The position numbers and the translations under genes were made by a program. A DNA stretch of 42,502 nt from Perkinsus chesapeaki (lineage: Eukaryota > Perkinsozoa > Perkinsida > Perkinsidae): positions 9,583 through 52,084 of the forward strand of contig JAAPAO010000214.1 in NCBI GenBank assembly GCA_013115145.1, in the 5' to 3' direction. Shown here piece by piece: positions 4,614 to 34,101 of this stretch. Numbering within the stretch: the first letter of the stretch is position 1; each line of letters begins with the position of its first letter. The notes beneath the pieces were generated by a model. That model saw nothing but the letters and a program-made list of their open reading frames with translations, did no database searches and had not been told where the DNA came from.

Positions 4614-5742
4614 TCTGTTCCTCAAAATGTACAACGAATCTCCGACTTCCAGGGTCAAATTTCGCTGCCACTTTCGAAGCCATAATAATGCCGCATAAAT
4701 TCTAAGCAGTGCGGAATGCTACCCAGTTGAAAGCCGCTGAACCCTAAAAATGCCTTGACATAAAAATGCCTTGAAACAAATCAGATGAATTTAATCGATC
4801 GGCTGTAGCCACGTCGGCTAATTCCCACTTTATAAGTTCATGAAACACTCCGTCACTGCGCCACGAAATTCCTACCTTGTCGTAGCAGTTGTGGTCGTCT
4901 GATTCTCCTCATAATGGTAAACTGGCCGGACAAGCGTATCAGGTAAAGGCAAGCCAAACCGTCTAACTTCAGATAACGCACTATAAAGACTTTTAGATAC
5001 CTCCAAGGTGGTGACCTGAAATCTTGCTAATCTTGACCAATCTTGCATTTCCTCAACGCTACCGTGTATGTGATAAAAATATCGTCCAACATTTGTCTCA
5101 CTTCGTGCGTCGATGCCACCGGAAGAATGCCAACAGGCTCCACTGGACTAAAACACCAGTAAAGGTGAAAATTGAAAAATCGGAAAAATCCGGATTTTTC
5201 CAGGAAAAATCCGAAAAATCTGGAAATTTCCGGAAATTCGTAGTAACGAAATTCTTCTCACCTTGCCATGATAGCTTTACTGGGATCAGCACTCGCCACA
5301 TAGCTCAGCAAAGCACCGAAGCCGGATCCAAGGCTCGTCTGCAACTGGGCAATGAAGTCATTGATAAGCAAATCAAGGGATAATGCAGCCTGTTCTTTGG
5401 ATACCTGAACAAACAAGTCATTAAATTACAATAACGAATAGAGTCTTTAACCAATTCCATTGTTTTCCTCTTTTCCGCCCCGAAGCCAGCAGTGAGACAG
5501 AGGGCTCGAAGAGAAGAAGGCCACCGAACTCGCGAGAGTGTTCTCTATAATTGTCGATCCCCCAGACATGGCAGTCCTACCTTATTTTCCAGGACGGAAT
5601 CTCCGCCAACATCAACCGTTTCTCTCATCATAACAGTTAAGAGACCATCAAAGAATCTTCTAAGGCTACATAAACCATAGTCAATCTCACACATGGCTGA
5701 ATGCAGCTTTAGTAACCATTGCAGCTTTAGCCGCATCAACAC
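4614..5742 (-). CDS. Unrecognised protein, five phase-consistent exons
   Basis: Exons 5742-5581, 5404-5262, 5147-5063, 5015-4876 and 4701-4614 join with matching phases (0, 2, 0, 2). In order they read LKLQWLLKLHSAMCEIDYGL ... MMRETVDVGGDSVLENK; then VSKEQAALSLDLLINDFIAQ ... YVASADPSKAIMA; then PVEPVGILPVASTHEVRQML ... FITYT; then VTTLEVSKSLYSALSEVRRF ... PVYHYEENQ; then IYAALLWLRKWQRNLTLEVG and onward. The make-up is helical and leucine-rich, with no domain I can name. The last exon either uses a GTAGGA donor at 4613 or runs on to a stop near 4590. A likely upstream exon at about 6226-6320 (CPRFEDCWMNDEIEMEYTEA to a GTAAGT donor) suggests the gene starts further right. The intron 4702-4875 begins with the shared block AATTTCGTGGCGCAGTGACG. 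Confidence 0.6.
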
Positions 5743-6225
5743 CTGATCAGCGGAAAAGCTGGTATCAATTCAGCAAAACAAAGCTCAAGGTCGATTCCTG
5801 TTTGCAATAGGGAATTTCTGACCGAGATACATCAGCCGTAATTAAGGGAGAGCGAGACTGTTTAGTGACCCGCTAAACCGTATTATCCCGTGAACCGGGC
5901 TCCTGTGCGAAGGCTGAACTCCCGAAGAACATCCGTCCCATTTTTCGGCACAAATCTGCGCTTACTACTTCTATAAACGCCACCCACCCACATGACCCAA
6001 ATTGGCTATAAAAATGCTCAATCGTTCGGGGGGTTGCAACTATGTCTTTTATGAACAAAAATGACGCCAGAAGACTGAGCACCTCAGAAATACGAAAATG
6101 TGCGAGAATCAATGATAATTGGAAAACAAAACATGATCAACAACAACTATTTCAACTCCAACGAAATATATTATTACAATTTACCAATGTCACGCTTCAA
6201 CCTAAGATTCCCCAATCCCCACTTA

Positions 6226-6320
6226 CGAAAGGTAGCGCCTCCGTATACTCCATTTCAATCTCGTCATTCATCCAACAGTCCTCAAATCTCGGACAAAGCA
6301 TCACAATAAATCTCGGTATT
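6226..6320 (-). CDS. Possible upstream exon of the unrecognised gene
   Basis: The minus strand reads LCPRFEDCWMNDEIEMEYTE followed by ALPF and a good GTAAGTGG donor. It is acidic and looks coding, and its position suits an exon upstream of the chain at 5742-4614. The acceptor is not certain. A second candidate lies at 6740-6890, after the palindromic block and a TTGTTAG acceptor, reading YGELSQLVTNITNVWSWG. Confidence 0.35.
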
Positions 6321-7054
6321 CCAGTATATGAAATCGTTCGTGCGTCTGCGTACGATACCGACTTGTCCCTTATTATCGGCGGAAATGAGGGTGACCCTCC
6401 ATAATCACCAATAGTCTGGAATAGCAGCCATAATCATGTAAATACTGCATTTGCCAGACCCATATAAAGAGTAGTTCATCCGCGTCACAATAGCGGCGTC
6501 ACGCCATTCGCGCGGCTCCAATCACGTCAACCAAGATCACTACATACTATTTCTTGGTGGGGATACTTCCCTCAGAAGATTAGCTACACATCACGCTTCA
6601 CTTTCTCAACATTTTCCTTAATTTTTATTCGAGCAATTCAACCTAATTACCAATTTTCTAAAATCTCTATTTTTGATAGGTCAACTGCTCGCCACTGCTA
6701 CTTGCCACGTACACTGTCCCCATTATTACTTCATTCCATTTGCTCGACTTCGCATTCGTAATCTTCTTCCTCACTCTCAGTGTCACTCTATGAGGTAACT
6801 TCACACGATACAGAGTAGTGGTAGTGTGACCCCATGACCAAACATTGGTTATATTAGTAACCAACTGGGACAGTTCACCGTATCTAACAAAATCGATCAC
6901 ATGATCGATTATCATACCGACAATAATCACTCTACAAACATGCGACGAAAACCAGCAACAAAAGCGTATCCCTTCAGTATGTCTCGCGCAAGCAGTACAA
7001 GTTCTGAAAATTTTTCTCGTTTTTAACGTTGTTAGGGGTCAGTGAATCTGGCAC

Positions 7055-7659
7055 TACAGTCCTCCAAATTAACTCAGAATATCACGTTTTTGTGACCATT
7101 CTCTGCCAGATTTGCGACTCTATGCCCAAAACTCAGAAAGCCTCGTTCTAACATGGCCTTCAATATACCACCGAAGTTTCAGCGCCTAACACTCACTGGT
7201 TATTGAGAACTGAGAAATCGGCACGGAAAAGAAAAGATCGCTACAATTGGTGCATATTGTACCGTGTGCATCGCGAAATGAGCAATGTCAGGCTTCGCTC
7301 TGCGATTTCTCCTCAACTACTTCCGACTGCTCAATGAGACTTTAAGGGGTGAGTACTGTATATGATAGGTTTCAAGTACTACGAGAGTTATAATCGAACT
7401 CTTCTATCTCGAGGTACTTCCCTAAGAAAAATCGTGATTTTTGGGCCAAAATTAAGGTGTGTATTCTAAGTTAATTTGGCAACTTTTCCGTGCCGATTTC
7501 TCAGTTCTCAATAACCAGTGAGTGTTAGGCGCTGAAACTTCAGCGGTATATTGAAGGCCATGTTAGAACGAGGCTCTCTGAGTTTTGGGCACACAGTCGC
7601 AAATCTGGCAGAGAATGGTCACAAAAACGTGATATTCTGAGTTAGTTTGGAGGACTGTA
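7055..7659. mobile_element. Foldback MITE, Tc1/mariner-like ends
   Basis: Two 175-bp arms, 7057-7231 and 7483-7657, are near-perfect reverse complements with only a handful of mismatches, around a 251-bp unique centre. The outer ends are CAGTCCTCC...GGAGGACTG, flanked on both sides by TA (7055-7056 and 7658-7659). TA duplication and CAGT ends are the usual signature of Tc1/mariner-type elements. There is no transposase frame inside, so it is non-autonomous. A partial extra copy of the outer end (TTCTAAGTTAATTTGG) sits in the centre near 7464. Confidence 0.85.
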
Positions 7660-9800
7660 TTATGATCGCATTGACATATCTGTCGGGTCTAGTACCAGTG
7701 ACATGGGGAGCGAGAATCGATGGACAGCTGCCGACTCTGACGGTCTAGTAGACAACACCAACAGGAGCACTTTACTTAGGCACGACTGAGCTCCATGATG
7801 ATTGAGTGAGAGGAAGTGAATAATATATTATTATAATGTAAATGTTATGATATTAAACGATATATTATAGATAGGAATAATGGTTTGATAATAACAGTAA
7901 ATTATTGATTTGATTTATCCACTAAAGTGTAATGATATAAATAATGATTTAATCCATACAAAAGGAAAACAACAGTAGAATAATAACAAGCAATAACATC
8001 TCTACAACAGCATATAATATTCTCATTTTTATGCAGCTGCCTGTCCCCTTCGATAAGGCTGCTGATTATCGCCAGTATAATGTTTGTTATCTCTGCGGGT
8101 TCAGTTATGCGTAATATCCTTCTAAGCCCTGGTCTGAGGATACATGCTACCATGAGTGACAGACGGGACGGCCCCAAGCTCGCTGATAATCTCTTCTATA
8201 TTTTTCTAGACTATCTTATACAATCATCTTCATACTGATATGCGAATTCAGTTGAACTCTCAACATTCCAAAGCCATACCATAAAGCTCGAATACCGCGA
8301 AATTCGAGACCCGCCTCCTGTCCAATCCTTGTTTCCTCCTTCTTTAACTATGAGCCATGATCGCCAATAATGTAATAAGGACCACCACTAACTAGTCCCT
8401 AACAGTTGCCCTTTATTACAGGTCATTAACATTTTGTATCGGCGGTGATGCCATCTTTTGCAGGAACCCTGGCGAGTCGAACTTAGCTGATCCTTCCGGC
8501 ATAATAGGAACAAAGGGAAAATAATTCACTGATATACAACATGCAGTAAAATATACAAGGGCCCAGGAACAGCGGACATTGGAAAAAAACAGTTACGATT
8601 AGGTTCGGTTGCAGGTACTGCGTGCCTCGGTGCTCCGCCCTTCCCCAGCATCGACGCCTCGGCAGGCCATCACCGCTGGGCTATAGAAGCAAGTTGAGTC
8701 ATATCAAACAGACTATTATGAAACTTGATAATAAATATCCATATAAACATTTTTCCGAATGAGATGTGAATGCTCCGAGCCCTATTTGATATAGAATGTT
8801 TCAAGCAATAATACCGATGGGTCAGCCTGACCCGTCAAGGACTACCAAAGACGTGCATGGATGCGTTCGAAGGTGGCGCAGGTGGTACGGGAGTGGCCCC
8901 ATGGAAAACCACACCAGAAAAGGTCCCTAATGGCGAAATTCGACTACGGGCACCTTCCTAGGGCAAAATTTTTCCCCAATCGCATTCCTTCTGGAAACAA
9001 TTCTGTTTTCCTTCCTTGACTAAACAAAGCCCAGTAACCGAACGCAATACGACAAGTATTATGATAATCATGGACGCAAGCTCCGTGACATAGGGGGACA
9101 GGAATGAGGACGTAAGCGATCAAAATCAGTACTACAAGGTATCTAAATCGATCAAATGGTCATTAACTCAACCTCAAGATACCCCCCCATATTACCCGCC
9201 CTTCAGCACTGCGGAATGATGTCCCCTTTACACTGAGATGGTTTACTGGATATGAAGTCGCTGGTCGAAGTGGTGCTAGAATTTTCCACAAGTGCCTAAC
9301 ATGTACAAAATGGCCGATCTTGATCGGCGAATTTTCCTCTAGAAAGCTCATGAAGATGCCATAGAGTTCTCCACAAGAACTTCCTATATTCCAGCCAGAC
9401 TGCCTTTATTACCTGGATCGCCGCCAATACAAATGCCTGTGGTCAGGTATCTTCCTTGGCATTATTGCCTTCCAGGACTTGAAGTTATTAAATCTATCCA
9501 ACCTCGGATCCAAATGCCTGTATTGATGCCCATCGACTGTAGATGGTCGATTATCATGTCGCATTGATATACCTTCTATTGACAACCTAATAAAAAATAT
9601 CCTCTTTTTGGAAAAAACAATGGGGAGAAATTCCAGTATTCTCTTCGATGTTGAAGACGTTCTTGGTTCGATTTTAATAGCTAGCTTATAGAAAGATTCT
9701 GCAGAGGTCGATAGATGTGCCTCACCTGTTAGGTAGATTATCTCGATTCCTTCCGATATAGGCTGTCATTTCAAAATAACCATCATACTTCAAGGAAAAT
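7660..9800. other. Gene-poor spacer
   Basis: AT-rich at 7800-7930 and otherwise mixed. A minus-strand frame at 7902-8177 is open but has no recognisable protein or splice signals. I find no supported gene, RNA or repeat here. Confidence 0.4.
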
Positions 9801-9821
9801 AAACAAGCACAATGCGCAGAC

Positions 9822-9892
9822 GGAAATACAATTTTGTGGCGCGCGAGAGATATTCTCCGCCAAGGTTCGATCCCGGCAAGCTGTATTTTTCC
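9822..9892 (+). repeat. tRNA-like relic
   Basis: A B-box-like GGTTCGATCCC (9873-9883) is followed by GGCAAGCTGTATTTTT, a T-run as in Pol III terminators. Upstream is TTTTGTGGCGCGCGAGAG, which resembles the shared intron block found elsewhere. No full cloverleaf can be folded. Confidence 0.4.
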
Positions 9893-10742
9893 ATTAATTA
9901 TTTCGCTGCGGTCGCACAAGCGCCGCGATCGTTCCCTACTTACCATCTCTACTGTGGAGGAAGGGCTATGGGCATCAATGCGGACAACAACACGGTTGCC
10001 CGTCGGTTTGCCTGGTCGGTCTAATGTCATTTATAACTACCCAAGGCAGCTTATTTATTTGGCAATTTCCCAAACTCACAGTTGAGCAATTTACTATTGC
10101 TTTTGTAAGGGATCCTTTTGCTGAAATGGATTTTTTGCCACCTAGGCTCTACGATTCCGGCATTCCAGTTAACATATATAACGGGCTGGCATAATTTTGG
10201 AAAAATAATAAGTCAATTTTCAAGCTTGATTTCGCCCAGGTCGAATGAGCAAGTCGAACAGGTGGTGTTGATGAAATCGGCTTCAGTGTTAGGATATAAC
10301 GGTGAAGACGTTGGTGAAAGAAAAATTGACGAAGTTATGTCCATCTGGACCCAAAAGGCTGTATTTTATATGACTATTAAGCAAGGGAGAGTATTAGATA
10401 TTTCAGTACTACTGCTTTTGTAGGGGAGATGGTTGCTGTTCTCACAGCTAGTTGTTAATCTAACTACATCTCGGAGAAACCGGTTCTGCCTCTTCGATTG
10501 TTAGTTCTACTTTCGGCGCCTTAAAACTTAACAGCTTATCTGTTGAGGCCCTAGACGAGTTGACTCTACTTACTGGCTCCGCCAATCGCGATGGAAATGC
10601 TCGCCTGTTGGTAAAGGAAAATTGGATTTCATATGGCTTTTGTGAGGGGAGTTAGAGGTCAACTGGGGAAGGTGGCGGATAGATATTTTGAAGGCAATCG
10701 CTGGTTCTGGCAGTATTTCCTATTCCTTGTTGTCTTCACTCG
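9893..10742. other. Upstream region of NAA15; possible small exons
   Basis: The phrase GCTTTTGTRAGGGGA recurs loosely at about 10100, 10413 and 10635. A plus-strand frame near 10236-10425 (EQVEQVVLMKSASVLGYNGE) is open but unrecognised. No gene is called. Confidence 0.3.
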
Positions 10743-13700
10743 ATGACTAGTTCTCTATCACAGCTGCCCGGCAAGGACCAGAGTCTCTTCAGACAAGTAA
10801 TATAAAAGGAGGGGAAGGCAGTTTACGGTTTTTCTATCAGATGGTACGGTACTATGAGACCAAGCAATACAAGAAAGGCATCAAATGCGCCGATCAAATC
10901 TTGAAGAAAAACCCAAAGCACGGAGAGACGGTGTGCATGAAGGCATTGATAATGTCTTACGTTAATCCAGAGGATAAGAAGGAGGCATATGAGTTGGTTA
11001 AGCAAGGACTCTTCTACGATCTTAAGAGTCACGTCAGTTGGCATGTGTAATAATACCATATTTCCGTCTGATCGTGGTCTAAAAAGGCCTCTCCAGGTAC
11101 GGTTTGATGCACAGAGCCGATAGGAACTACCAGGAGGCCGCCAAGTGCTACAAGAATGCCCTTAGAATCGATCCGGAGAACCAGCAAATCTTGAGGGATC
11201 TTTCAATGCTTCAAGTGAGCTTCGCTCCGCCCTATTTTGAATGCACGTTTACCATTTTTAGCTTCACCAGCGCGATTTGGAAGGATATACGGAGTCACGC
11301 CGGAAGCTGCTGTCGTTGAGATCGTCTCAAAGGATCAATTGGATGGCTTATGCAGTGGGAGAGCATATGTTGGGCAATTACGATGTTGCTAAAACGCTGT
11401 TAGACTCTTATAAGAAAGTAATAAGGCATGTGAGATGGTGCAGTGGTAGAGCTACCGTTTGTGGAGGGGAAGGTTGTGGGTTCGATACATAGGGAAGGCG
11501 TTTCTATTAGTCGGTTTTTTTATTAGAACTTTGCAGCGGAAGTCTCCGAGGATGCAGACTCGAAATACGAGCAGTCAGAGCTCTACCTCTACCAGGTGAA
11601 GATTCTCCCGAGGTCGATTAGCTGACCTTCCCTTCAGGCTGTCCTTTTGGAACAAGGCGGGGAATTGCAGGAGTCACTGGATATCTTAGAGGATCATAAA
11701 AAGTAGAAATAATTTCCGCGGTTAAGTCGGGAAATTATTTTCAAGGGAAATTGTGGACGGCACGACGAGACTGGAAAGCATCGCGCGGCTCTCAATGGGT
11801 TTGGGAAAGCTTGATAAGGCAGCGGCAGCGCTTAAGGAACTCATAGTGGACTACAACGCAGAACAGGAAAGCTACGTGCTTGCGTGGCTTAGCTGTGTGG
11901 AAGACGGAAAGTAGTATAGGAAGGATGGTCTAACGGTATAATTCAAAGTTTTCATGCGAGAGGTCGTAGGGTCATTTCCAGGATGGTGCATTCTCAGGTT
12001 TTCTAACTTTTGGCCGCAAATGACTTCGAAGGAATGCTGCTGGCCGGTGAATTCTGGCCTTCTTCCTAAAGGAGGCGCGAGGGTAGTGGGGAGGGCACGG
12101 GTTCGATTCTCGATAGATGCATTTTATTGGCACTATTAGTGGGACCTGTTAGGTTCGTGGATGGTTGCCAAAACCAGAAGATAGGAAGATTGCCGCGCCA
12201 GTCGAGGTGGAGTTCGCTCCTGAGCTTAATGCTGGGAAAAAGAGTAATCCTTGGAGCTGATTTGTATCTTGCACGCTCCAACCTTGGATACGTTTTAGCT
12301 CTTCTCGTAAAGGGCGGGTGCAAAGCTCTGTATCGACCGGCCCGAGAGCTCACCGTTGAGGAAGAGCAAGAAGTCATGAAAGCTTTCGAAGGTCTCAATG
12401 CTGACGTAAAAAAGGAGACCGGTAATTAAGTCAGGCGGAGCGAAGCGATTTTTATTTCCAATTTTCAGGATTTTACTCGGGAACAATCACCAAATGCATC
12501 TTGCTGTTCTTGACTGGCGAACGTTTCGAATCGAAACTGAAGGAATATGTTACTAAGCAGCTCTGTAAAGGTGTACCGTCAACTCAAAAGTAATAGGGAA
12601 TCTTTCTCCGCTATGAAGTGCACGCTTCAACCTCTCTCAGATTGCTCCGAGTGTTCTACAAGCAAAGTGCTAGCAAGCAGCTAAGTGTTGATCGTATCGT
12701 TAAGGAGTGTGAGGCTGAAGGAGAGGAACTTATCGCTCTCGCTGATGCACGCTCGAAGGCCACAGACGCGGCGGATGTGCCCAAGCCACGCGAAGGGTTG
12801 GCCAACCTCCCGCCAACCTACGCGTGCTTTGCCTTGCTCTTGGCAGCAAACCACCTGGATCATATAGGCAGCTACTCGGAAGCTGTAATGAAAGGAATTT
12901 CGTGGCGCAGTGACGAAGATTGGTGTTGTTCGTTTAGATGGAGAAGATACAACGTGGATTGGAAGTTAGTCCTACTTGCATTGACCTTTACGTGTCGGCC
13001 TCGAAAATGTAGTATTCGATGGTATCTTTGCGCACTATAAAGAATATCTTTTCAGCTTAAAACATGAGGAGCGCTTTGATGAAGCTGCCGAGTATATGGA
13101 CAAGGCTCGACGGATGGACTTGGCAGACAGGCAGCTTAACACACTCAGTGTGAAGGCGCAGCTGAGGAAGGGTGATATTGACACAGTAAGATAATATTAG
13201 GATTTCATACCGTATTTCTCACTGATCGCGACGGTTTTTATTAGGCGAACTCCCAAATTATGTTATTTGCTAAGGAGAATGACACGATGACCACGTCGAA
13301 CCTTTACGATATGCAGTGTATGTGGTGGGAGATCAGAACTGGCATGGTAGGCGGCGGCGGCAGCGGAGCGAAGTGATTTTTGTTTACACATTTCGGCTTA
13401 GTTGTACGAAGCTCGAGAAGACTATAGCATGGCCCTAAAGCGCTTTAATGATGTTTTGAAGCAGTTTGAGGACATCCGCGATGATCAGTTCGATTTCGCG
13501 ACCTACTGCATGAGGAAGATGACTTTGAGAACGTAAGGTTCCGGGAAGGATCGTCGGCGCCGTCATTTTACGCTTTTTCTATCAGATTCGTCGAGTTCTT
13601 AAAGACAGAGGACAACTTGGAGCAACATATCTACTATAGGGAGGCGAGCGCTGGTGTGATACGATGTTACATGAAGTTGATGGATAAAAGGGAGAAGGAG

Positions 13701-14415
13701 GCAGCCGAGGCGGCCAAGGCGAAAACTGAGAGCGAACAGAATAAGGAAAACGATTCCAAGGTGGGGAAGTCTCAGGGCTTGTAATGCGTGATTTGGTCAT
13801 CGTTAGTTGTCTTCGGCGGAGCGAAAGCGTCTGAAGCATCAAAAGAAGAGAAAGCAGCATGACCAGCAGCAACAAACCACTACACAGGACAACTCGAAAA
13901 AGCCCGAAGGTAAGGAAGTTAGCTGGTTACGTGGGTTCGATTCCCACATGGTGCATTTTAGGTGCCTTTGGTATGCGAGCAACTGGCCTGACGATGGAGG
14001 AGGAAAGAGCGAAGGGTGACGAGCTCGAGGCAGTTGCAGATCCTCTTGATCGATGCGCGCATATTTGCGAAGTAAGACCGCTGTGGTTCTGATAATATAT
14101 TATGCGTCGCTCCGCCTTTGTAGGTTTTATCAGAAAAGTGCGGCACTTGGCCCGAGACACAATCCTTATGTTTTGACGTTTCCCTTCGACGGAAGAAATT
14201 CTTACAGTCCTTAGCCTGCCTGGTGCGACTGAGGAAGCTCGGCGAGCCCGTAGCAGAGCAGGCCAAAAAGCTGGCTGAAACGGCGAAAGCTGGTGAGTTT
14301 TGGTTTTTGTTGGCATCTAGAGTCAATACTGTTGTTGTCAGACGGCACATTGGAAGGAGTGCCAGCCAAGGTGTTCAATGAAGAGCTGAAAACTCTACTT
14401 TCAGAGTCGTGTTGA
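10743..14415 (+). CDS. NAA15: NatA N-terminal acetyltransferase auxiliary subunit, 21 exons, 841 aa
   Basis: NAA15 is the TPR scaffold that anchors the catalytic NAA10 on the ribosome for co-translational N-terminal acetylation. Exons: 10743-10796, 10841-11046, 11097-11214, 11262-11417, 11527-11595, 11638-11702, 11746-11910, 11998-12046, 12153-12243, 12299-12421, 12469-12589, 12641-12884, 12938-13008, 13056-13185, 13245-13346, 13402-13532, 13586-13760, 13807-13909, 13962-14071, 14124-14292, 14342-14415. All phases close (2526 nt). Family landmarks in order: [110 protein letters not shown], the [20 protein letters not shown] signature, and the usual basic stretch [19 protein letters not shown]. 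Length is close to animal NAA15. Exons 8 and 9 (11998-12243) are supported by phase only and encode a non-canonical stretch. Introns are 42-109 nt and several carry shared or tRNA-derived blocks. Confidence 0.93.
11418..11526 (+). repeat. Intron 4 of NAA15 carrying a sense tRNA-like unit
   Basis: Inside the 109-nt intron, TGGTGCAGTGGTAGAGC matches a tRNA A box and GGTTCGATAC a slightly decayed B box about 40 nt downstream, on the gene's own strand. The unit is followed by T-rich sequence and the acceptor TTTTTTTATTAG. Confidence 0.6.
11703..11745 (+). other. 43-nt intron made of an 11-bp inverted repeat
   Basis: Intron 6 of NAA15 contains AAATAATTTCC (11707-11717) and its exact reverse complement GGAAATTATTT (11730-11740), separated by 12 nt. 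The hairpin spans nearly the whole intron between donor GTAG and acceptor TCAAG. Confidence 0.85.
11911..12152 (+). repeat. Two consecutive NAA15 introns with sense tRNA-derived units
   Basis: Intron 7 (11911-11997) has an A-box match TGGTCTAACGG, a decayed B box (AGGGTCATTTCC) and the 3' end GGATGGTGCATTCTCAG. Intron 8 (12047-12152) has B box GGTTCGATTCT followed by GATGCATTTTA. The TGCATT ending is shared with intron 18. The small exon 8 between them (11998-12046) is only phase-supported. Confidence 0.6.
13910..13961 (+). repeat. 52-nt NAA15 intron formed by a tRNA 3' half
   Basis: The intron reads GTAAGG at the donor, then a perfect T-arm (GTGGG, loop TTCGATT, CCCAC at 13931-13947), then ATGGTGCATTTTAG. 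The T-run after the tRNA end, where Pol III would terminate, doubles as the pyrimidine tract and 3' splice site. Confidence 0.75.
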
Positions 14416-14708
14416 AATACTCATACGATAAAGATGTGTTCCTTTAATGCTACTAATGACGATTGTGAGACTGTGGGCCGCTGCTGATGATGGTGCTGCT
14501 TGAATGATCTACAATCAGCAACAACTTGTTAAACTAGTAACACTGTCTTTATCAGCGGATGCTCACGTTTGGTTGTCAATCATGGTTAGATGGAAATGTC
14601 CCCCCACTTTACATACTATAAGTGTCCTCGAGTGCTTCACTTCACTCTTCATCCGCACTGGGGTTTTGTGTTAATTGTGAAAGTCGTTATTATTACGAGA
14701 TATTCCAA

Positions 14709-17700
14709 ATGCTTACTCTTATGAATGTAAATAAATGCAGCAGCTGGCTGATGGTCATGTTGATGTGGATGGCCTCGGGCTCCGACCCAGATTGCGAGAT
14801 AAGTAAGTTGTAAAATGACCCCGGCCCGATTCGAACGGACAACCTTCTGATCTGGAGTCAGATGCGCTACCGTTGCGCCACAGGGCCAGTTGATTATTTG
14901 TTTATGTCAGACCCGGAAAGTTGCCAAAGGAGCAGTTGTGGCCTTTTGCCGCAGGTCAAGAATGCTAAGTTTGTTGGTGTAAGCTCTCTGTTGTCTACTG
15001 ACATAATATTTTCAACTTGTAGGAACACCCAGAAGGCGGAGTATTCGATCACGAGGCGGTTGCCGAGTTCGCTTGCCATGAAGGACACTCAGTAGATGGT
15101 CTCGCTTTGGGTACATAACAATGTTAATAAAATGATTATCGTTTGGGATACTTCAGGGCCAAGGAAGCTGCTCTACCGCTGCCACTCTGACGGCCTATTC
15201 AAGCCCGTTCGATCAGCTCTGACAGAATGTATGCTCGTTGCTGTTTTGCCTCGACCTCTACCCGCCTGTGACAGGTAAACCGGTTAAATGTGGTGCGCCG
15301 TTCGAGCTGCCATATGCCTTTCCGACGTCACATAAAGTTGGCGAGCCTATCGTCTATCCTCAAAGGGTGAGCGGATCTGTGAAGTTGAAGTCATCGGCTT
15401 GTGCAGGTTAATTATTCGTGTCACGAACATCACACTGCAAATGGAGAGAACGACGGAGCAAGTAAGATGGGACGCGACAAAATGACCCCGGCCCGATTCG
15501 AACGGACAACCTTCTGATCTGGAGTCAGATGCGCTACCGTTGCGCCACAGGGCCAATCACGCAATTTGACACTCATGTGGCGCTGTTTGTCAGAGGAGAT
15601 CAGCATAGTTTGCGGATCTGACGGCAAGTTCCAGCCTTCATATCCTCTACCACGATGCCAGCCAATACATTGCGGGGAATTCCCCAACATAACCAATGCC
15701 GAACCATTCAGGCGAGTCCGTAAGTAGCTACCAATCCTCGCAGTATGAATGCCTAAACTCGATCAGACAAGTACCGCGTAGAAGAAGGGCAAGGCATGGA
15801 CTACGTCTGCTTGAACGGTTTTACTGAGAAAGTGTTGGGCTTTGAAATCAAATGCGTTAATGTACGGCACTTTGCCGAGTTCCGTTCGTGAACTGTGGTC
15901 TCTTTTTTCAGATCGATGGCATTGTGCAATGGGACATTCCTGCTCGGACACCATGTGAGCCTCAGACGAACCAGTTGCCTTGGTCATTGGCTTCCATCAG
16001 GCGTCGCCAGGAAGTGTGGACAGCTTGAACACTTCTCTGATGCGGAGCAGACCGATTTCAGCAATGACATAACATATCGCTACCCTTCCAAAGTGCCATT
16101 TGCTTGTAAGTTCCGCAGTGGTCCTCCGCATAGCAAACCTCATCTGTTAGGCGAGTCCGGCTATGCTCTGGGTGGCGACAAGAATCGTCATACTTTCACT
16201 GCGTCATGTAGCATCACTGGTATATGGGAGTACGATCGTGGCAAAGATCGGTGCGAACCTGTCATATGCGGTGAGCCGATGCCCGGTGTTGAGAGTGAGA
16301 ATTTGTGGCGCAGGTGACATTAACGATGTACCCGGCGAAATGAAGCGGTTTGCCACTGCAGTTATTGCTCCGAAGGTGCCGTTGATATACTATGCGCATG
16401 CGTGCAAAGCTCTACTTAGGTGATGCGATTAGGTGACAAGATGGAGTTCGCCTGTGATGAAGGTGAATCATTGGAAGTTGTCTGCCATGGCAAAGCCTTC
16501 CCTCAGGAGCATATGTTGCGGGAAGCGATAGGAAAAAGACAACCTACGCCATTGAGTGCAGCAACACTGGAGACTTTAAGTTGGCCGCTGGCCACCAAGG
16601 AACATGTCAGCAAACTACAATAGAGCCGCTTGTACTGTGGCCTCCTCAGGCATGAAACCATGTGGCCCACTGCTGCCGATGAAGAGTGGTAAATTATTGT
16701 ATCCAGCCGGAGTAAAGATTGGCCAAGTCGTAGAGAGTCCAGCAAATGTCGTCTACACATGCGAGCAAGGCCACACCCTTGGTACAATTGGAACTCATCT
16801 GAAATTCGGAACGTCTCTTTTAGGTGGCGTAGTCGGCGGTGAAGTAAAATTCTCGCAGCAATGCCACCCCGATGGTAATCTCTCACCAGAGGCGCAGCCG
16901 CCGGCATGTGAACTAGTGGTGAGTGGCTTACCGCATCCCTTGGCTTCACGGCTGTGTTCCAGAAATGCGGCCATGCCCCTGCAGTGCCTCATGGGGAGCG
17001 GCTGGCCTCTGGCGAATCGGATGATGAAGAGTTCGTTTATGAAGACGAGGTTAAATATACGTGTTCGGAGGGTATGACGCACAACGGTGTCGCCCCAGCA
17101 AAAGGAGGAAGTTCTTTGCTGGTTGCTAAGTGTACGCACGTGTTATGGCTTTATTGCCTCGATTACCCTTCACAACAGGTGGAGTGCTCGGATGGGGAAT
17201 GAAAGATACTGATGGTCGATGGTCAAAGAGAGATGTGCAGTGTCAAGTTCCAAGATGCCAACAGAAGCTTCCTGCAGTCCCAAATGCAGTGAGATGAATC
17301 ATATAATGCGAATTGATATTCTTTGAATTGTTAGGCGGCAGTATCAACTCATGTTGTTAACGGAAGACTTGCTCTCAATGGGACCGTCGAGTACAAGTGC
17401 AACGTAGGCTTTGCACTCAAGGACCAAGTAAGAGGGGACACGGCAAAATGACCCCGGCCCGATTCGAACGGACAACCTTCTGATCTGGAGTCAGATGCGC
17501 TACAGTTGCGCCACAGGGCCAATCTGTCCCCCATGCGTCCGTATAATCTCCCATCTTCTCAGACAAAGCCAGGTATCGTCTCTTGTAACGAGGAAGGGGA
17601 CCTAACCATAGAAATGGACAACTTCGAATGCGTAATGAGCTCTCTCAGCACTTGTGAAATATTCTCTCCTTAGGCACCGCTCGTGTGTCCTCTGCTCCCC

Positions 17701-18350
17701 ACGATTATGTATCATGGAACTCTTCACGGTCCGCCAGCACGGGAACCTTACAAGGCACCACCAAGTGAGGGGAGCATGAGCACTACTAACAAAGTATACT
17801 CTCATTCTCAGGAGTCTACCAATGCCCAGATCGATGGACACCAGACAAAGTCGAGATACAGTGCGGCCTTGATGGCGAATACCACGCAGTTGGACCTCGG
17901 GATTTCCGAATGGGCGACCCCAAGACGACGCGGTGAGGCATGTTGCTGTTATTTTTGTCACAACACTTCCAGGTACCCAATGTGCCATCCGCCCTCTTGT
18001 AAGGCTTCTGACATACCACCGGCATGGACGCATATATCTCTACGATCGCGCGCCCAAACAGGAGATTTCATCTACGGAACTTCTTACAAAATCAAATGCC
18101 AGCAAGGATTCGGCACCGCTAATGCTACGAACATGTTGCCAGTACGATGCAATGAGAACTCCCAATGGGAGATTGATGGCAATCCTGAGGATTTCGCCAA
18201 AGACGGCTACGTTGGATGTAAGCTCTTTTGCATATTATAGCAACTGCTACAAATTGTAGCCTACAATGATGCATCATAGGTACCGAAAGGTTCACCGGCA
18301 CTGGCGAGTACATTCCGGAAATTTGGCCGCCGCCCGTGTTGTATGGCTAA
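14709..18350 (+). CDS. Secreted multi-CCP (sushi) domain protein
   Basis: The first exon (14709-14802) encodes a signal peptide (MNVNKCSSWLMVMLMWMASG, then SDPDCE). After it follow repeated CCP-like modules, shown by recurring C-G-x-x-P-x-V and internal/terminal Cys patterns: SSCGLLPQVKNAKFVG; KPVKCGAPFELPYAF; PIHCGEFPNITNAEPF; KCGQLEHFSDAEQTDF; EPVICGEPMPGVESE; MKPCGPLLPMKSGKL; KCGHAPAVPHGERLASG; CQQKLPAVPN; HPPSCKASDIPPAWTH. At least eight modules are likely. It ends TERFTGTGEYIPEIWPPP plus VLYG and a TAA. CCP modules usually mediate extracellular protein or glycan binding. Many short introns split the modules; I verified the first exons, several internal junctions and the last one, but not every junction. 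Three introns hold antisense tRNA-Trp genes. No membrane anchor is seen at the C-terminus. Confidence 0.8.
14816..14887 (-). tRNA. tRNA-Trp (CCA), copy 1, in CCP intron 1
   Basis: A 72-nt cloverleaf on the minus strand: acceptor GGCCCTG pairing with CGGGGTC (two G-U), D-stem GCGC/GCGC, anticodon stem TCTGA/TCAGA with loop CTCCAGA (anticodon CCA), T-stem GTCCG/CGGGC with loop TTCGAAT, discriminator A, then TTTT. It lies antisense in the intron 14803-14910, between donor GTAAGTTG and acceptor TATGTCAG. The D-loop AACGGTA keeps G18-G19. Confidence 0.8.
15483..15554 (-). tRNA. tRNA-Trp (CCA), copy 2, in a CCP intron
   Basis: Identical over all 72 nt to copy 1, followed by TTTT on its own strand. 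It is antisense in the intron 15462-15593. The flank between donor and tRNA (GTAAG then GGGAC.CG.CAAAATG) resembles that of copy 3, not copy 1. Confidence 0.8.
17449..17520 (-). tRNA. tRNA-Trp (CCA), copy 3, D-loop variant
   Basis: One change from copies 1 and 2: the D-loop reads AACTGTA, so the first of the two conserved Gs is lost, which may weaken folding or function. It is antisense in the intron 17428-17562 (donor GTAAGAGG, acceptor TTCTCAG). Confidence 0.7.
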
Positions 18351-26748: not shown

Positions 26749-27098
26749 CTACTTAAGAACGTCCCAGTCCTCGCTCGGTGGTGGTTTCGCATAGGCGCGT
26801 TTAATTAGTCGCTTTTCCGCTCGACCAAGGGTTTGCTTTTTATGTTTCAACATATTGCGGAACGTCTTGAAATCAAAGTACTGCTTGGGATGCTTCAAGT
26901 GGTACGGCGGACGACTTCCCTGAAAAATCGGGACAATGATAATCGATCACGCGATCGATTTACCGGATCTTGCCAAACTTTATGTTCCGAGTGCGGCAAG
27001 TTGGGATAGTAGTCACTCTTGTAGTGCATTATGCGCTCCGTCCTATCCAACAGCAGACGACTTCTTCTCAGAACTGCTACTCCGCCACCTTGCGCCAT
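26749..27098 (-). CDS. Small basic protein, 2 exons, 101 aa
   Basis: Exons 27098-26964 and 26919-26749 join in phase 0 across a 44-nt intron. The protein is rich in Lys, Arg, His and aromatic residues: MAQGGGVAVLRRSRLLLDRT, SDYYPNLPHSEHKVWQDP, SRPPYHLKHPKQYFDFKTFR, ending PPPSEDWDVLK. It has no membrane segment. The composition would suit a mitochondrial ribosomal or similar RNA-binding protein, but I do not recognise the family. The ATG follows a tRNA-like relic at 27110-27150 that may lie in a 5' UTR intron. The coding intron carries the ATCGATCGCGTGATCGAT palindrome. Confidence 0.7.
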
Positions 27099-27109
27099 TG
27101 GTAATAATC

Positions 27110-27150
27110 ACAGCTGCTATACCAAAGGTCCCCGGTTCGATTCCAGGCAT
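27110..27150 (+). repeat. tRNA 3'-half relic
   Basis: GGTTCGATTCC (27131-27141) is followed by AGGCATTGTCATTT, the same layout as the other tRNA-derived units. It is antisense to both neighbouring minus-strand genes, just upstream of the 26749-27098 start codon. Confidence 0.5.
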
Positions 27151-27221
27151 TGTCATTTCTAACATCTACACCATGAATTCACGTAGGAAACAATCAATGA
27201 TACAACAATAGAAAACAATCG

Positions 27222-30200
27222 TCAACCCATCATAGTGTGCTTTCGAGAAACCAATGCCTGACACAACACAAAAAACGACACTTGCCAAAATCGATCAATC
27301 GGGCGAGCGCTGCTTACCGGATGATTGCATATCACCGCGTGACTTGGTTTGCACTGGAGATGGTCTTCACCGTTGGACCAGGTTTTAACAGTCAATGCTG
27401 ACATTAAAATCGATCACCTGGGCGAGCGCTTTTGACGATTTCGGCTTACCGTGCTCCGTCAGCCATGTGGTGGCATCAGCGGCATCGGTGAAGTCTAACA
27501 CATCGACAAGATGAGCGACTGGGTACGTTTGGTATCTGATCGAAAATCTTCGCAGTGCGCAAGATACTTTCGTACGCCTTTGTGATGGTCCGTAGTGCCT
27601 TGAGACGCATTCGTTCGAGGAAGAGTCGGAGCAAATGGTACGCATGCGTTGGGGCAGCTCTGATAGGTATACTTGACGATGGATCTTCCTCGTCGATTTC
27701 AGAGGAATCTTTACGAGCAATTCGGACCAACCTGATGACATGAAAGCCACTGAGCTGTGATCAGCGTGGGAGATTAATAAAACTTTCGGCAAATGGAAAC
27801 TAACCATCCCTACGTCCTGAACGGACTGATGAACGTGGATGAACGAGGAGCGATAGATATTATTAGTTTGTTGGTGATGCTATTATTAATGGTAATATCT
27901 ACATACAGCACATTATAATGAATAATAATGTTATATTATTAGTATTGATTATTACCACATTAGCCTACTGAGTATCAAATCTATATATATTATATAGGCA
28001 TTAACATCACCAATTCGGTGGGATTTGTTCAGAAGTGATAAGGCTAGATATGAGTAATGCGTTTCCTATTACCATCAATGATGCTCGATAATAATATAAT
28101 GTGATGAGCAATCACGCAATAGGCGAAAAATAAACAAGGAGCGGTCTTTAGTGCGCACTGCGGAGAGTCCCGAGGATAATGATGTTAGATAATCGATTGA
28201 GGTGACGCTTGATGCTATCTATTATTATACATATTAATTATCATCCATTATAGAATTATTATTAATGAAACGTAGCAATAAGGTCATTATGAATCATCAA
28301 TATATATTATCATATGCATTAATACAGGGTAAAGTGATGAGCCTGAATGGCGTTGCCTTATTTACCTAAAACAAGCCTTATAATCGTTGGTAGCCATCGC
28401 TTGTCGAGCCTTCTTAGCAAATACGACATACGGGTGATGCCGCTGTTCGGGGGTCAGTGCTCTTAGGAACTTCATTTCATCAGCACGCAGTGACTGTAGC
28501 GAGTAGTATCTGTCACGCGCCACGAAATACGTCCTTATCGACAGCGATCAGACGAAGCTTACAGGAGTCTGTAACAGAGAAACTCGCAAGTCACATTGTC
28601 GTCATTGGCGTCTTTAGCTGCGTAAAGGTATCTTAGCTCGAAGCATGCAAGATGCACCAAATGTCAACCTGCCGCTCACTTCAATTGCGTTTGACACTGA
28701 TTAAACTGCCCAAGATCTTCTGCTTCCAAAGCCCATCGGGCATTTGCTTCATACACCGACCGAGTGAAATCATCCTTTATATTCTGCACAGTTAGGTCTT
28801 GCCGGACCGCTCTGATGACATCCAACAGCTAGAGGTGTCAGAAAACCAAACGGCCCACCTGAGCTGCTCGCCAATGTATTTCCAATCTCGTGACTTTTCA
28901 TGATGATAAATCTTCAATTGCTCCATCCACTTCTTCAGCACACTCGGTGGTCGAACCTGCGCAGCAATTTCACATTTTCAACGACAAACCCCGCTCGCAC
29001 CCCTCGATGTGACACTGCGGAGAGAGAGAAGGGAGAAATGAAAACAACTGTATCCGACACGCATGAATTCGTATCTCTCCTCCTGATAGATTGAGATCCT
29101 CAACACCCTATAATTCCCTCAACTATCACTGGAACGTGTTTCAAATCGCCGACTTACCATCGCCGAATACCAAATTTAGTAGATACTCCATCATCGATGA
29201 TAATAATGATACGTGTTAGTGATTTTTTAGTACTAGTATGATTCATTGGAAACTTTCGGTGGCATATCTCAGGAATCTCCACACTTCATGATGGTGAACT
29301 ACCCGTTCTTCCCGCGCGCCACGAAACTTACCAAGCTCGGATCGGGTTGACTGGTAAGACGGAGATAGTTCTTCTCCATTTTTTGACATGTTCCAACAAC
29401 AACAAAATCGACAGTCTGTTCAAACACTTCAGTCTCATCGACACCAAACGAGAAATTAACATCCAGCGGAGCGACGCGAGGTGCTGCCGACCTAATGACA
29501 GCTAGAGGTGTCAGAAAAATGTACCCTGAAAACTCACCTGCTGGCATCATCTGTCCATAGCCCCGAGGCCGATGAGCTTGAATTATCGTCTGCTTCTGAA
29601 GAAGATATCCGTGAGAGCTTAAATGCAGAGACTAAGATCTGAACCCCACTGCAAGAGTTATCTCCTAATAGCAATATGAGAGCTATAAACCACAATGATA
29701 CTTTTATAATAGGATTTGATCGTATTATTGATGAGAAAAATACGGCTTGAATATTAAATTATTGACTACAAGGTTATATATCTTTATTGAACAACTACAA
29801 TACAGTATGAGCCAAACTACCTTACTTCAAACTATTATCGAATAACCTTTCATATCTCTTCCATTGATAATAACCATATTGATAAATTATTAATAATATT
29901 ATTAGTAATTACTATCAGTTTATTGGTAATAATATTTTTATCGAACGAATACAATATGGACTTGAACCCCGTACTAATATCTCCATACTTCAGACTATCA
30001 TCAAATAACCTTCGTAAATCCCATTATATATAACTTCACATCTCGCCGAGCTAAACTCACTGAATCTCTCCATTCGTTGTTGCCTCCTCTTCAGCTCCTC
30101 TGCAGTAGCCTCACCCGCCATCATCAAAATAGCTCCCTGCACAGAAAACCTTCGCAGTGCGCGCTTTAACAAAGATCTTCTCGGAAAAGATTCATTTGTT

Positions 30201-33200
30201 TTCTTTGATGAAGGCACATGCTGCTCGAGCTCTCTATTAACACATTGAAAACTCATCCAACAATTTCCAAAAATTGACATATTTTTTTTCATACGCAAAT
30301 TCCGTGGAATAAAAAATAACTGCGAAAATACATGTACTTTAGTAGCCCTTTTTGGCTCCTCGTTAACCCACTTTCTTTGGCTTAGCCTTCGCTGCTGCCT
30401 GCAGTTTAGCCTTCCGCTTGTTATTCCCTCTCTTACTCGCTCCTGGCGTCAACGTTACATTATACCCCGCCGGCGTCCCGTCACTGAGGGGTATGAAGTC
30501 TGCAGACTTCTGCCCTGAAGCACGATCACCTTTACGAAGACAATTACGTTTCAATTGGCAACTCACCGAAGGACGCACGCCGCGAAGGCGATTTCTTCGG
30601 ACTTCCTCGCCGGGATCTTTTGGGCGAAGGAACAGCCGCGGACTCCTGAAATGCCAGCATTGAACGTAGGAATAGCAGCACATTGTGGTAGGATGGAACT
30701 ACCTACCACTACAAGATATTAAATAACAGATATAAAATAGTCTACAAAAATATCTAATAGTAGTATAAAGAAAGTCCAATATGACCGGTATAATGAACTC
30801 CCTTAAAGACTTATACGACCTAACCTCTTTCGATTACTGCTGTGATTAATGTGTACATTTATATGAGCAATTGAACTACGATTTACAATGTAGATCGTAT
30901 CAGGTTATAAATACATCAGACCCTCGATTAAGATATTCCCCTACCAACCTGTTCCCATAGCTTTGGATCCACACGGCAGTCTATCTCATTCTCACTCGGT
31001 ATCGGATAATTGTTCCAGTCTGTTGCCCAGTACGTCCCTGAGATAGATCAAGTTACAACGGACCTCGTTCTGCGCTTAAACTCAACAACGGCCGCCTAAC
31101 TTCACAACTAGACGCAGTTCAAGTATTCAAAGTTCAAGCGCAACATATCTACAGATCAGTAGCATAGGCAGATATTTTGACACAACTCGGATAGGATATT
31201 TCATCACTAGTTATTATTTTCTTTACCGCTGTATTTAATTATTCCATCTCTCGACTACCACTTCATTGAGAAGCTCGCAAGCGTCGAAAAAAGAAACAAA
31301 CCATCCCAGACAGCTGAGCGATGTAAAGTTCCACCGAAAAGACTCCCTCCTGCCCGACGAGTCTATGAGGCATCCGACAGACAACGATATTTCTCTTAAC
31401 CCGACAAGCGTCTTTGCCGATCCGATCTCTCCTCCTCACCAGCAGCTTTAAGCTTGTTAGTAATATCCTTCACAATGCCATCAGCTGCTGACAACCTGGC
31501 CGTCCTCAACTCTTGGCTCATACCAGGGTGACCACCGAGGGAAGCATACAGTCGTTGAACCCATTGGAGCATTCCAGGTGGATGTTGAGATGCAGCCGCC
31601 TGAGAACCAAACTCACGCAGAGTTAGCAAATCCCTGCTGGTCATCGGTCCCAGGTTCGATCCCCACCCCCAGAAACATCGGATTTTCTCAGAAAACCCCA
31701 TTCCAGCTTTTCACTATCTTTTGTAATAATTCCTTCCAAGTTTGTGTTCTCCAACTCCGCTTCCGTAAGACGTAAGGATCGATCCTGTAGCCCCACCAAT
31801 ATAGGACACCCGTATTAAAGCGAAACATCCCACTATGGACCGGTCGCGGGTTCGATCCCCGCACCCCGCATCCCTACCTTATTATTCATTGCATTTTGGA
31901 TCACTGCAGCTGCCCCAGGTTGACCAAAATGTCTCGCCTGGCCTCCTGCCGCTCTAAGCTGCTGTTGTTGCTGCTGCTGAGCATACCATGCCTGAGAGAA
32001 TGCAAGATTGAGCAAGATTGCAAGATTCGATACATATACGATCCTTATAAGAACAACATGTGCTGCTGAAAGCACAACAACAACTATACTGAATCCACGG
32101 ATCCCGGATTGCTTGTCCCGGATTCGGGTTTCGGGTTTTGAAAACCCGGAAATCGTCCGGTCTTACCTGTTGATAGGCCATCGCTGCTTGTTGCTGTTGA
32201 TACATCATATACATCGCTGCTTGCTGCTGCTGTTGACTAACAATAATGAAAGTGAGATAATCATCGATGAATAAATACTAGATTCTAATTTCATTAATAA
32301 ACATAACGATCCTGGGATCGAACGTGTGCGGTTTACTTCCCAAAGTTATGCGGCGGTTGCTGCCCCCCAGCTGAGCTGCCGCTCGTCTGTTGCTGCTCCG
32401 CCGGCTGGCTGGCTGGAGGGGATACTTTCTTCACTTGCTGCTTCTCCACCGTATGCTCATAAAGATGCGCCACCATCGTCTTCCAAAATTGATATCTGAC
32501 CTCGGAATTCCGCCAATAGCATCTTTTCAAAACCGAGGCAAGACAACGACCGAAAATGCTAGTCTGTCGAAGATTAAAACACGCATACTGTATGCACCAG
32601 TGTAAGGGAATATATTAAAACGTTTTTTCGAATATGAAAAGTCAAATGTGTCCCCCGATTTCCAAAACCACTGTCCATTTCCCCCAGTCTAGCGAACCAC
32701 AGTCATCGTTTTTCATAACCTATGCTGCTGGCGAACCAATTTCATTATTTCGCATTGAGGATCAATATTGCTCAGAGCCTGTATCGTTAGCGCAATCAGT
32801 TTCTTGGGACACTCATCTCAGCAGCTTCAGCAAAGCCTACCCCTGATTTGTGACCGACATCTATCCTATATGAAGCACTTATTATTAAACAACACCAACA
32901 GCAGCTGCGCAATCTTCCCCTGCACAGCAGCTTAAAGCGTCAATAGTAACGGACCTCTCAATCATCAGTTAGTGAATCAAGTCGCGGGTGACCACAAACG
33001 TTACCAGAAATATGACCACCATATTTCCCTCTACTACAAAGCCACTCCTTTTTTAGTTGAATTCGGTTGCTGTTTGTTCAAAGTCTTGGCATACTCCTGC
33101 ACATGCTGTCGAACCTGAGAACCCCACCACCAGCATCCGGGTTCGATCCCACCGTCTAGCATTTTAAAAGAAACAGCCACGCATGGTTCATAAGGTTCAT

Positions 33201-33478
33201 ATGGTCTTATGGCAATTTGCTGCAAATTCGCCTTATGGCGAGTTTCGGCACTACGAATTAACGACTATCTAACAGTATTTACTCCACATCAATACGAAAG
33301 AAGATGCTGATGGATATTATGTCCCTTCTCGGATGCATGCGAATCAACCTCGAAAGAATCTTTCTACCTGTTCCTGTTGCGCGGCTGGAAGGACATTAAA
33401 CATCCCACAGACTCGTTGCTTTTCCACGGGATTCTCCGCCGAGCTATCCAAAGTAACCCCACATGACGCTTCTGCCAT
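27222..33478 (-). CDS. LENG8: THP3/LENG8-like SAC3-domain protein, 20 exons, 674 aa
   Basis: Members of this family (yeast Thp3, animal LENG8) work with a CSN12-type partner in mRNA maturation in the nucleus. Exons: 33478-33368, 33114-33038, 32495-32337, 32236-32167, 31991-31878, 31599-31440, 31037-30949, 30645-30567, 30514-30372, 30136-30061, 29595-29538, 29491-29332, 28956-28859, 28811-28680, 28631-28563, 28509-28366, 27659-27576, 27535-27450, 27397-27318, 27257-27222; total 2025 nt, all phases closing. The start is [21 protein letters not shown] Gln/Met-rich region follows, then the helical [13 protein letters not shown], the [10 protein letters not shown] stretch, a basic RRQQRMERF, and the SAC3/GANP core: [81 protein letters not shown], then a winged-helix-like [19 protein letters not shown]. 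Several introns carry shared sequence blocks. Confidence 0.92.
27258..27449 (-). repeat. THP3 introns 18 and 19 sharing GCGCTCGCCC...GATCGATTTT
   Basis: Intron 18 (27398-27449) and intron 19 (27258-27317) both begin GTAAGC and both contain AGCGCTCGCCC, a few variable bases, then TGATCGATTTT. Exon 19 lies between them (27318-27397). Confidence 0.85.
27536..27575 (-). repeat. THP3 intron 17 with GCGCACTGCGAAG block
   Basis: A 40-nt intron whose middle is TGCGCACTGCGAAGATTTTC on the coding strand. The same block, GCGCACTGCGAAGGTTTTC, ends THP3 intron 9 (30137-30371), and the related CTTCGCAGTGCGC core forms the array at 1545-1860. Confidence 0.8.
27660..28365 (-). other. Long AT-rich THP3 intron 16
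   Basis: At about 706 nt this is by far the longest intron in the gene. It is mostly ATTATTAATAT-type low complexity (27850-28330), with one GTGCGCACTGCGGAG block at 28151. No coding stretch is visible in its central part. Confidence 0.7.
28812..29537 (-). repeat. Identical 20-nt block in THP3 introns 11 and 13
   Basis: TTTTCTGACACCTCTAGCTG on the coding strand occurs at 28826-28845 (intron 13, 28812-28858) and 29499-29518 (intron 11, 29492-29537). Both introns are 46-47 nt and end a few bases later in CATCAG or CATTAG. Confidence 0.9.
31600..31877 (+). repeat. THP3 intron 5 with two antisense tRNA relics
   Basis: On the strand opposite THP3, GGTTCGATCCCC occurs at about 31652 (then ACCCCCAGAAA) and at about 31848, where GCGGG, loop TTCGATC and CCCGC form a perfect T-arm followed by ACCCCGCAT. 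The second relic abuts the intron's donor GTAGGG. Confidence 0.65.
33115..33367 (+). repeat. THP3 intron 1 with antisense tRNA 3'-half relic
   Basis: GGGTTCGATCCC (33138-33149) is followed by ACCGTCTAGCATTTT on the strand opposite the gene. The GCATTTT ending matches the NAA15 intron units. Confidence 0.6.
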
Positions 33479-34081
33479 TTACGGAAATAATCCAAGGCCT
33501 ATGATACATCAGTCAACCTAATATGCATCATGTACGCTCAACTTAAGGATTCTCTAGTATAATATACCACAGGCAAATACGAGCTTATTGAAATGAATGC
33601 AAATAAAAAATATAAACGAAATATCTGTTCGCACTGTTATAGTCAGGAACCGACCTAACAATGTCAATAAGCTCTACTGATCAAGCATCAACTATCGAGG
33701 CAGCAGCAGCAGCAGCAATCTTCAAAAATGGAGGGTAGTAATATCTCGTAAACATCTTAGGCAAATCTAAATGAGTTGCACTGGGAATTTTCCGACTTAG
33801 ACGATCCCAACTGAGCTGCTCGAGGCAGATTGAGTGAATATCGATCATGGTTGCACTGACGTAATATACTAATAATATCTACACCAATCTATAAGCACTA
33901 GATCTTCGCTGCGAAAGGGCGGAGGTCCCCAATACTATATCACTACAAACCAAAGAATGACCTCCTTCCGCTCAACAACCACAGATGAGGTCAACGAATA
34001 TAAAGCAGATGCCTTTCTTATACAACACAATACAGTATATAGCAACAACCCCTCCCCCCAAAAAAACTATAACTCAACAAC

Positions 34082-34101
34082 CGTCACTGCGCCACGAAAT
34101 T
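34082..34101 (-). repeat. Shared intron block AATTTCGTGGCGCAGTGACG
   Basis: The 20-nt block follows directly on a minus-strand GT (CTG|GTAATTTCG) and is identical to those at 4851-4870 and 12896-12915. A small frame upstream (MAGAAEGMTSGL) may be the 5' exon of an uncharacterised gene. Confidence 0.8.

Follow-up and report, generated by a model that had tools for sequence, protein, structure and literature searches.

The 42,502-nucleotide (nt) stretch of Perkinsus chesapeaki DNA analyzed here (the window; contig JAAPAO010000214.1 of assembly GCA_013115145.1) contains three exact copies of a 20-nt block, AATTTCGTGGCGCAGTGACG, at 4851-4870 (-), 12896-12915 (+) and 34082-34101 (-). A first-pass annotation had proposed these copies and interpreted them as the mark of introners, that is, of introns which were themselves the inserted unit. 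Searching the window at up to 3 mismatches confirmed the three places and gave no other match, with 0.00 expected from shuffles. The copy at 12896-12915, placed by the window search, the gene model and an alignment with Perkinsus olseni, lies in sense orientation within a 53-nt intron of NAA15 (12885-12937, +, score 32.7). The gene model (10633-14415) has 24 introns and this one is the fifteenth, not the twelfth as numbered before. Once it is spliced out, the protein aligns gaplessly with P. olseni NAA15 at this junction, and 14 of the 20 residues surrounding the splice point are identical. In total, 15 of the 24 junctions run gapless into the P. olseni protein after splicing; the nine that do not are the first two, two in 11418-11526, two in 11911-11997 and the last three. 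Since the predicted NAA15 protein is 83% identical over 97% to that of P. olseni, and the next-best matches, Symbiodinium included, reach 39-40%, the host genome is Perkinsus or very close to it.

At 34082-34101 (-) the block stands right behind the donor GT of a weakly supported intron (score 11.4; the gene scores only 10.3 over a wider stretch). At 4851-4870 (-) it follows GTAGG in a region where the gene finder placed no gene, and where the best candidate by splice sites and open reading frame (ORF) has just 69 nt of open frame on the shorter of its two sides. Looser copies had also been noted in the THP3 region and they are present there as the left half of the block, TTTCGTGGCGC. The one at 28517-28527 (-) is followed by GTGACAG and lies at the acceptor end of a predicted 53-nt intron (28510-28562, score 19.0), whose acceptor is the motif end itself. 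The other, at 29316-29326 (-), sits right behind a GTAAG donor, although the gene finder gives a longer intron (29083-29331); the gene that holds it is presumably THP3, as it was named before. A copy claimed in the CCP gene does exist at 16301-16311 (+), with 2 mismatches in 11, straddling the acceptor of a predicted intron (16271-16313) of a sushi-like CCP model, but chance expects nine such 11-mers per window and the match may be fortuitous. At 9831-9874 (+) stands a left half, ATTTTGTGGCG, and 22 nt behind it GGTTCGATCCC, which resembles the B box of transfer RNA (tRNA) genes.

Association of the block with introns

The genome searched comprises 35,393,606 bases in 884 contigs (35.4 Mb) and contains the window. 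At up to 2 mismatches it holds 239 copies of the 20-mer (110 forward, 129 reverse), while a reversed-pattern control gave 0 and 0. Their context was analyzed at 99 of the 100 listed sites, including the window's three (one on contig 474 was omitted), plus one extra copy from locus L016, making a set of 100. Stretches of about 600 bases centered on each site were classed, at a score cut of 3 unless stated, by a gene finder self-trained on the fetched sequence and blind to the block, whose introns are GT-AG by construction (median length 48 nt). The 500 random control positions were drawn from block neighborhoods and are thus not a genome-wide sample. In published P. marinus genes, introns span 39-1622 bp, the majority being under 100 bp (PMC3101222).

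The proposed association between block and introns is supported. Predicted introns hold 58 of the 100 copies, exons 6 and neither class 36, as compared to 101, 200 and 199 of the 500 random positions; introns of different genes thus share the sequence, as they do in introners. With a score cut of 6 the counts become 49, 5 and 46 for blocks and 87, 184 and 229 for random positions, and with a cut of 10 they are 33, 4 and 63 and 78, 160 and 262. A test of splice sites plus open frame was passed by 60 of 99 blocks (43 sense, 17 antisense) and 113 of 600 random positions (59 and 54). A looser splice and ORF test was passed by 59 of 99 blocks versus 27.5% in the control, and the union of gene finder and open-frame test reached 68 of 99 blocks versus 195 of 600 random positions.

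We also searched Pfam with 20 of the 45 predicted block-intron peptides, chosen by eye for likely known domains. The match spans the junction in 14 of them (13 above the curated cut-off), of which 10 are sense and 4 antisense. The sense junctions fall in cNMP-binding, Lyase_1, thiolase, TPP enzyme (the match below the curated cut-off), EryCIII-like C-domain, two ankyrin, peptidase C69, Rad4 and RNB domains, and the antisense ones in dynein AAA_9, Glu/Gln tRNA-synthetase anticodon-binding, Prp8 RRM_4 and Med26. For the other six, the domain lies beside the junction in one and no match was found in five. Because protein domains continue across the junctions, introns carrying the block appear to be real in both orientations. 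A homolog search with the thiolase returned distant paralogs only (40-51%).

Within predicted introns, 42 blocks read with the gene and 16 against it (binomial p 0.0009 for the bias), so that the statement that the block always reads with the gene fails genome-wide. An even spread over intronic and intergenic DNA in both orientations had been named beforehand as evidence against insertion; by location the copies are not spread evenly, but their orientation is partly mixed. In 37 sense introns the block begins 2-19 nt past the donor (median 11) and finishes 5-30 nt before the intron end. It lies just inside the donor, as had been described, in a loose sense only: a 20-mer placed freely within an intron of ~45 nt would give about this offset. 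Of 49 block introns, 43 have a length of 36-55 nt (median 45), as do 395 of 584 other introns (median 48), so the block has not lengthened its introns. Had 20 nt been inserted late into an intron already present, that intron should be longer, unless it was trimmed back.

Insertion of the intron as a whole unit is unsupported as stated, as only ~20 of ~45 nt are shared, with sharp edges at the 20-mer and unrelated flanks. In sense introns, identity of the upstream flanks is 0.264 and not above that of random sequence matched in composition (0.259, standard deviation 0.016), and that of the downstream flanks is 0.303, slightly above random (0.288, standard deviation 0.013). Identity ends at the edges of the block and the splice sites are not shared, so the similarity of intron ends seen in introners is absent. 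An extended donor-side similarity suspected by eye in a few sense introns was not confirmed by these flank identities. Target-site duplications and inverted flanks, sought at many offsets in 100 copies, gave only scattered matches of 3-4 nt (at best 7 of 100, with 1.3 expected); neither target-site duplication nor terminal inverted repeat is required of all introners. Two further candidates were rejected. A hairpin finds no conserved right arm in the column counts, and the folding of 14 block introns is not stronger than that of their shuffled versions (mean z -0.19). Donor pairing inside the intron was found in 10, 5 and 3 of 420 introns at 5, 6 and 7 nt, with 12.3, 2.6 and 0.7 expected, and gave no clear case.

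Structure of the module

In the 100 aligned copies, which were selected at up to 2 mismatches and owe part of their identity to this selection, conservation begins and ends at the borders of the 20-mer, give or take one or two bases. One of the 100 copies is preceded by A, 90 have T or A at the second position past the block, and apart from a mild T excess one position further the flanks are near random. Among 100 listed copies of the 239, 42 are exact and 58 carry one mismatch. The central 10 nt hold 3 of these 58 single mismatches, where an even distribution would place 29 (p about 1e-13); the middle CpG is unchanged in the listed single-mismatch copies and the outer two are changed 21 and 15 times. 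Such a mismatch-poor core may reflect selection acting on every copy, or else a recent pool of source copies that varies only at the edges.

The block is the commonest form of a dispersed module of 18-20 nt, 5'-ATTTYGTGGCG-(1-3 nt)-GTGACG-3'. Its left 11-mer, ATTTYGTGGCG, occurs 891 times genome-wide (23 in the control), and ATTTCGT followed by GTGACG after a gap of 3-14 nt occurs 129 times (17 in the control). Within the first 100 of these 129 as listed, the intervening core is GGCGCA in 38, GGCGC in 29, GGCGA in 20, GGCGCG in 3 and GGCGT in 3, with one each of TGCGC, TGCGCA, GGCGAA and GGCGAAA and three unrelated. These discrete core classes argue that the module is bipartite with a spacer of 1-3 nt. 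In a 240-kb sample, 20 of whose 21 loci were selected for the exact block, the left half occurs in nearly all-or-none fashion, with 45 exact sites, 21 with one mismatch (7.75 expected) and 101 with two (96 expected). It also clusters locally, with 12 gaps of 1 kb or less versus 2.5 expected among the first 100 of the 891 sites. Two block copies form full palindromes, one in L040 and one in L019 near 4656. The viral contigs searched gave no exact 20-mer; an 18-mer variant gave 3 candidate matches there.

Left halves without the full block were classed as well. Twenty taken from the beginning of the genome list, with some sites skipped, gave 12 in introns, 3 in exons and 5 in neither. Among these 12 introns, four have scores under 3 and four exceed 80 nt, and at the cut of 3 the counts are 8, 3 and 9; one of the exon-called copies (L123) looks like a missed 40-nt intron. 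In the 240-kb sample, 21 such copies gave 6, 6 and 9, near the random level.

Other short families in the same introns

At least three further dispersed families occur in the same kind of introns. The tRNA T-arm word GGTTCGA or its complement has 16 matches in 15 of 467 introns, in both orientations, versus 1.7 expected. Short introns that contain part of a T arm or B box, in some cases with a stretch of T ahead of the acceptor, lie in both orientations at 12083-12152 and 13910-13961 of the window and in L014, L016, L018, L019, L020, L023, L027 and L028. By eye, several of the introns with this word are almost wholly tRNA-like, for instance one in L016 and that at 13910-13961. Some introns of ~46 nt resemble a T-arm piece over almost their whole length, which is hard to explain by insertion into an existing intron. 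A second family, GCGGAGCGAAGCG, is found at 12422-12468, 13347-13401 and, antisense, 11215-11261 of the window, and in L016, L018, L021, L022 and L029. Words of the GCGGAGCGAAG type occur in 9 of 467 introns, with 0.1 expected, and many of 25 aligned copies (two of them the same place twice) have a common run towards ...TTTACCATTTTT. Several copies of the GCGGAGCGAAGCG family are alike towards the acceptor (...TTTACCATTTTT...); this family comes nearer to a classical introner than the block does. Finally, GAGCGGTATG or its complement has 6 matches in introns versus 0.1 expected. This word is present in 11 of 21 loci (L010, L012, L013, L015-L018, L021, L023, L025 and L026) as 12 copies, versus 0.4 expected, and 9 of the 12 lie in predicted introns. 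In NAA15, 6 of the 24 introns carry the block, the T-arm word or GCGGAGC, and one more (11476-11526) is doubtful.

Other features were observed in the window and the genome. The predicted introns of the sushi-like CCP model (14751-18350) hold three tRNA-Trp genes in antisense, at 14815-14888, 15482-15555 and 17448-17521 (-). An inverted repeat at 7055-7231 and 7483-7659 has 177-nt arms, 97% complementary and separated by 251 nt, and a tandem array at 1534-1853 consists of 29/32-nt units with CAGTGCGC, with related single units at 27542 and 30144. Elsewhere, a U2 small nuclear RNA (snRNA) lies in L009 at 1501-1707 (-). The region that pairs with the branch site usually reads GTGTAGTATCTG in eukaryotes; here it reads AAGTGTATGTATCTG and seems to carry one extra base. 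Two U6 candidates were discarded: that in L104 is below the family cut-off, lacks any mark of a genuine U6 and contains a copy of the module, and that in L134 matched no Rfam family.

Discussion

Our best reading, which we favor tentatively, is that minimal introns are seeded or colonized by a short module which is copied and whose bipartite core is under constraint. The module is introner-like and not a proven introner, and a pure binding site comes close behind; the copied module is slightly preferred mainly because several short families sit in introns. According to this reading, a copied unit shorter than an intron would be placed into genes, where it would seed or colonize a minimal intron. 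The host would supply the splice sites and the remaining ~25 nt, which would diverge freely while the total length is held near 45 nt, and the core would be kept intact through recognition by the copying machinery or by a DNA- or RNA-binding factor. A broader version, in which several ultra-short families (the 20-mer, GCGGAGCGAAGCG... and the tRNA T-arm tails) nucleate new introns of ~45 nt with no fixed splice sites supplied, seems doubtful to us.

Several observations weigh against the copied module. The block is without target-site duplication, terminal repeat or common splice site, and a unit of 20 nt that brings no splice sites is insufficient on its own to form an intron of 45 nt. Intron gain is inferred here from one Perkinsus genome, and the strong constraint on the core is equally expected of a binding site. 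About a third of the copies lack demonstrated intronic status, a sizeable share of the passes would occur by chance, and the left-half family overall is less clearly intronic than the full block. The 36 copies in neither predicted class also count here, and so do a few copies in apparent exons, although one predicted exonic copy (L028) is doubtful, as it gives a clean reading with a 40-nt antisense intron instead. In L019, five variants of the module lie within 0.8 kb (4290-5100); one of them falls in a predicted intron and the other four share a single long ORF, in several frames and on both strands. A homolog search with the protein predicted there was empty; a longer true protein would exceed the length limits of that search.

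It is also possible that the block is a cis-acting recognition site for a DNA- or RNA-binding factor, kept by selection and tolerated by introns as 20 bp without any mobility. The core that changes less than the edges would fit such a site, and so would the bipartite build with spacer classes of 1-2 nt, the unfixed orientation and the local clustering of left halves. The same can be said of the position of the introns, as 6 of 19 module introns are the first of their gene in our own models, where gene starts are uncertain. However, the 42 exact 20-mers exceed the identity that a binding site needs, and the left half is nearly all-or-none, if only in DNA selected for the block. A DNA site accounts neither for the sense bias nor for the excess in introns over unpredicted DNA.

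The original proposal of a classical introner, that is, a whole intron-sized transposon inserted with its own splice sites, is unlikely. It would explain the enrichment in introns and the sequence common to many of them, and the second family, GCGGAGCGAAGCG, does tend to have a common run towards the acceptor. Against it stand the ~25 nt of each intron that are not shared, the unrelated flanks and variable distance from the donor, the occurrence in both orientations and the lack of any signal of target-site duplication or terminal inverted repeat. An RNA splicing element, with GTGAC acting like a branch point, is less likely still. The sense bias would agree with it, and in 37 sense introns the distance from the A of GTGAC to the acceptor is 8-33 nt. 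CTRAC is the usual kind of branch-point word, and in 418 other introns 15 of its 24 occurrences lie 15-29 nt from the acceptor. Nevertheless, antisense copies also sit in spliced introns, the offset is variable, and TGAC, TAAC and GTGAC alone have no clear positional peak in other introns. Least credible of all is a fragment of a tRNA-derived short interspersed nuclear element (SINE) or of a spliceosomal snRNA: although TGGCGCAGTG fits the A-box consensus of RNA polymerase III, one composite with a B box exists at 9831-9874 and tRNA T-arm pieces are present in introns, a SINE head was mostly ruled out, as only 5 of 891 copies have a B box at a distance of 18-48 nt downstream (0 in the reversed control), variants of the module break the A box, ARAGORN placed no tRNA at a block in 20 ten-kilobase block loci, and U2 and U4, to which the snRNA comparison is limited because U1 and U6 were not located in the genome, have no match to the block.

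How introns originate has long been debated, and introners are at present among the leading explanations. If the broader version with several families were correct, introns could be gained from pieces of less than half an intron, in either orientation, in which only the part read by the copying or binding machinery stays recognizable; host sequence would supply the splice sites and the spliceosome would set the length of the intron. Short common cores without common ends in the minimal introns of a lineage would mean either that relics of introners are commoner than surveys based on intron ends detect, or that a genome-wide recognition site resides in introns. Among the matches listed by our literature searches on introners, intron gain, Perkinsus introns and assemblies, and conserved intronic motifs, several of them partial texts, the block is undescribed.

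Miniature inverted-repeat transposable elements and minimal palindromic repeats are very short, dispersed and found in both orientations. The Perkinsus block resembles them in these three respects, and two of its copies are full palindromes, but most copies have no right arm, and neither inverted nor direct repeats flank them. The introner elements of Amoebophrya belong to a fairly related lineage and are likewise reported as repeated introns with no established mobilizer (PMC7789003). They carry inverted repeats of 8-20 nt inside the intron, direct repeats of 3-5 nt at its borders and non-canonical splice sites, whereas the block introns of Perkinsus lack such repeats and are modeled as GT-AG. 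The introners surveyed by Gozashti et al. (2022, PMC9860276) are also dispersed sequences common to many introns in aquatic protists, and the method of that survey allows for insertion in the opposite orientation; Perkinsus is not mentioned in its main text. The block differs from them in being the inner 20 nt only, with intron ends and splice sites that vary and no signal of target-site duplication or terminal inverted repeat. In this sense, we infer that a survey scoring the similarity of intron ends, as outlined there, would tend to miss the Perkinsus block.

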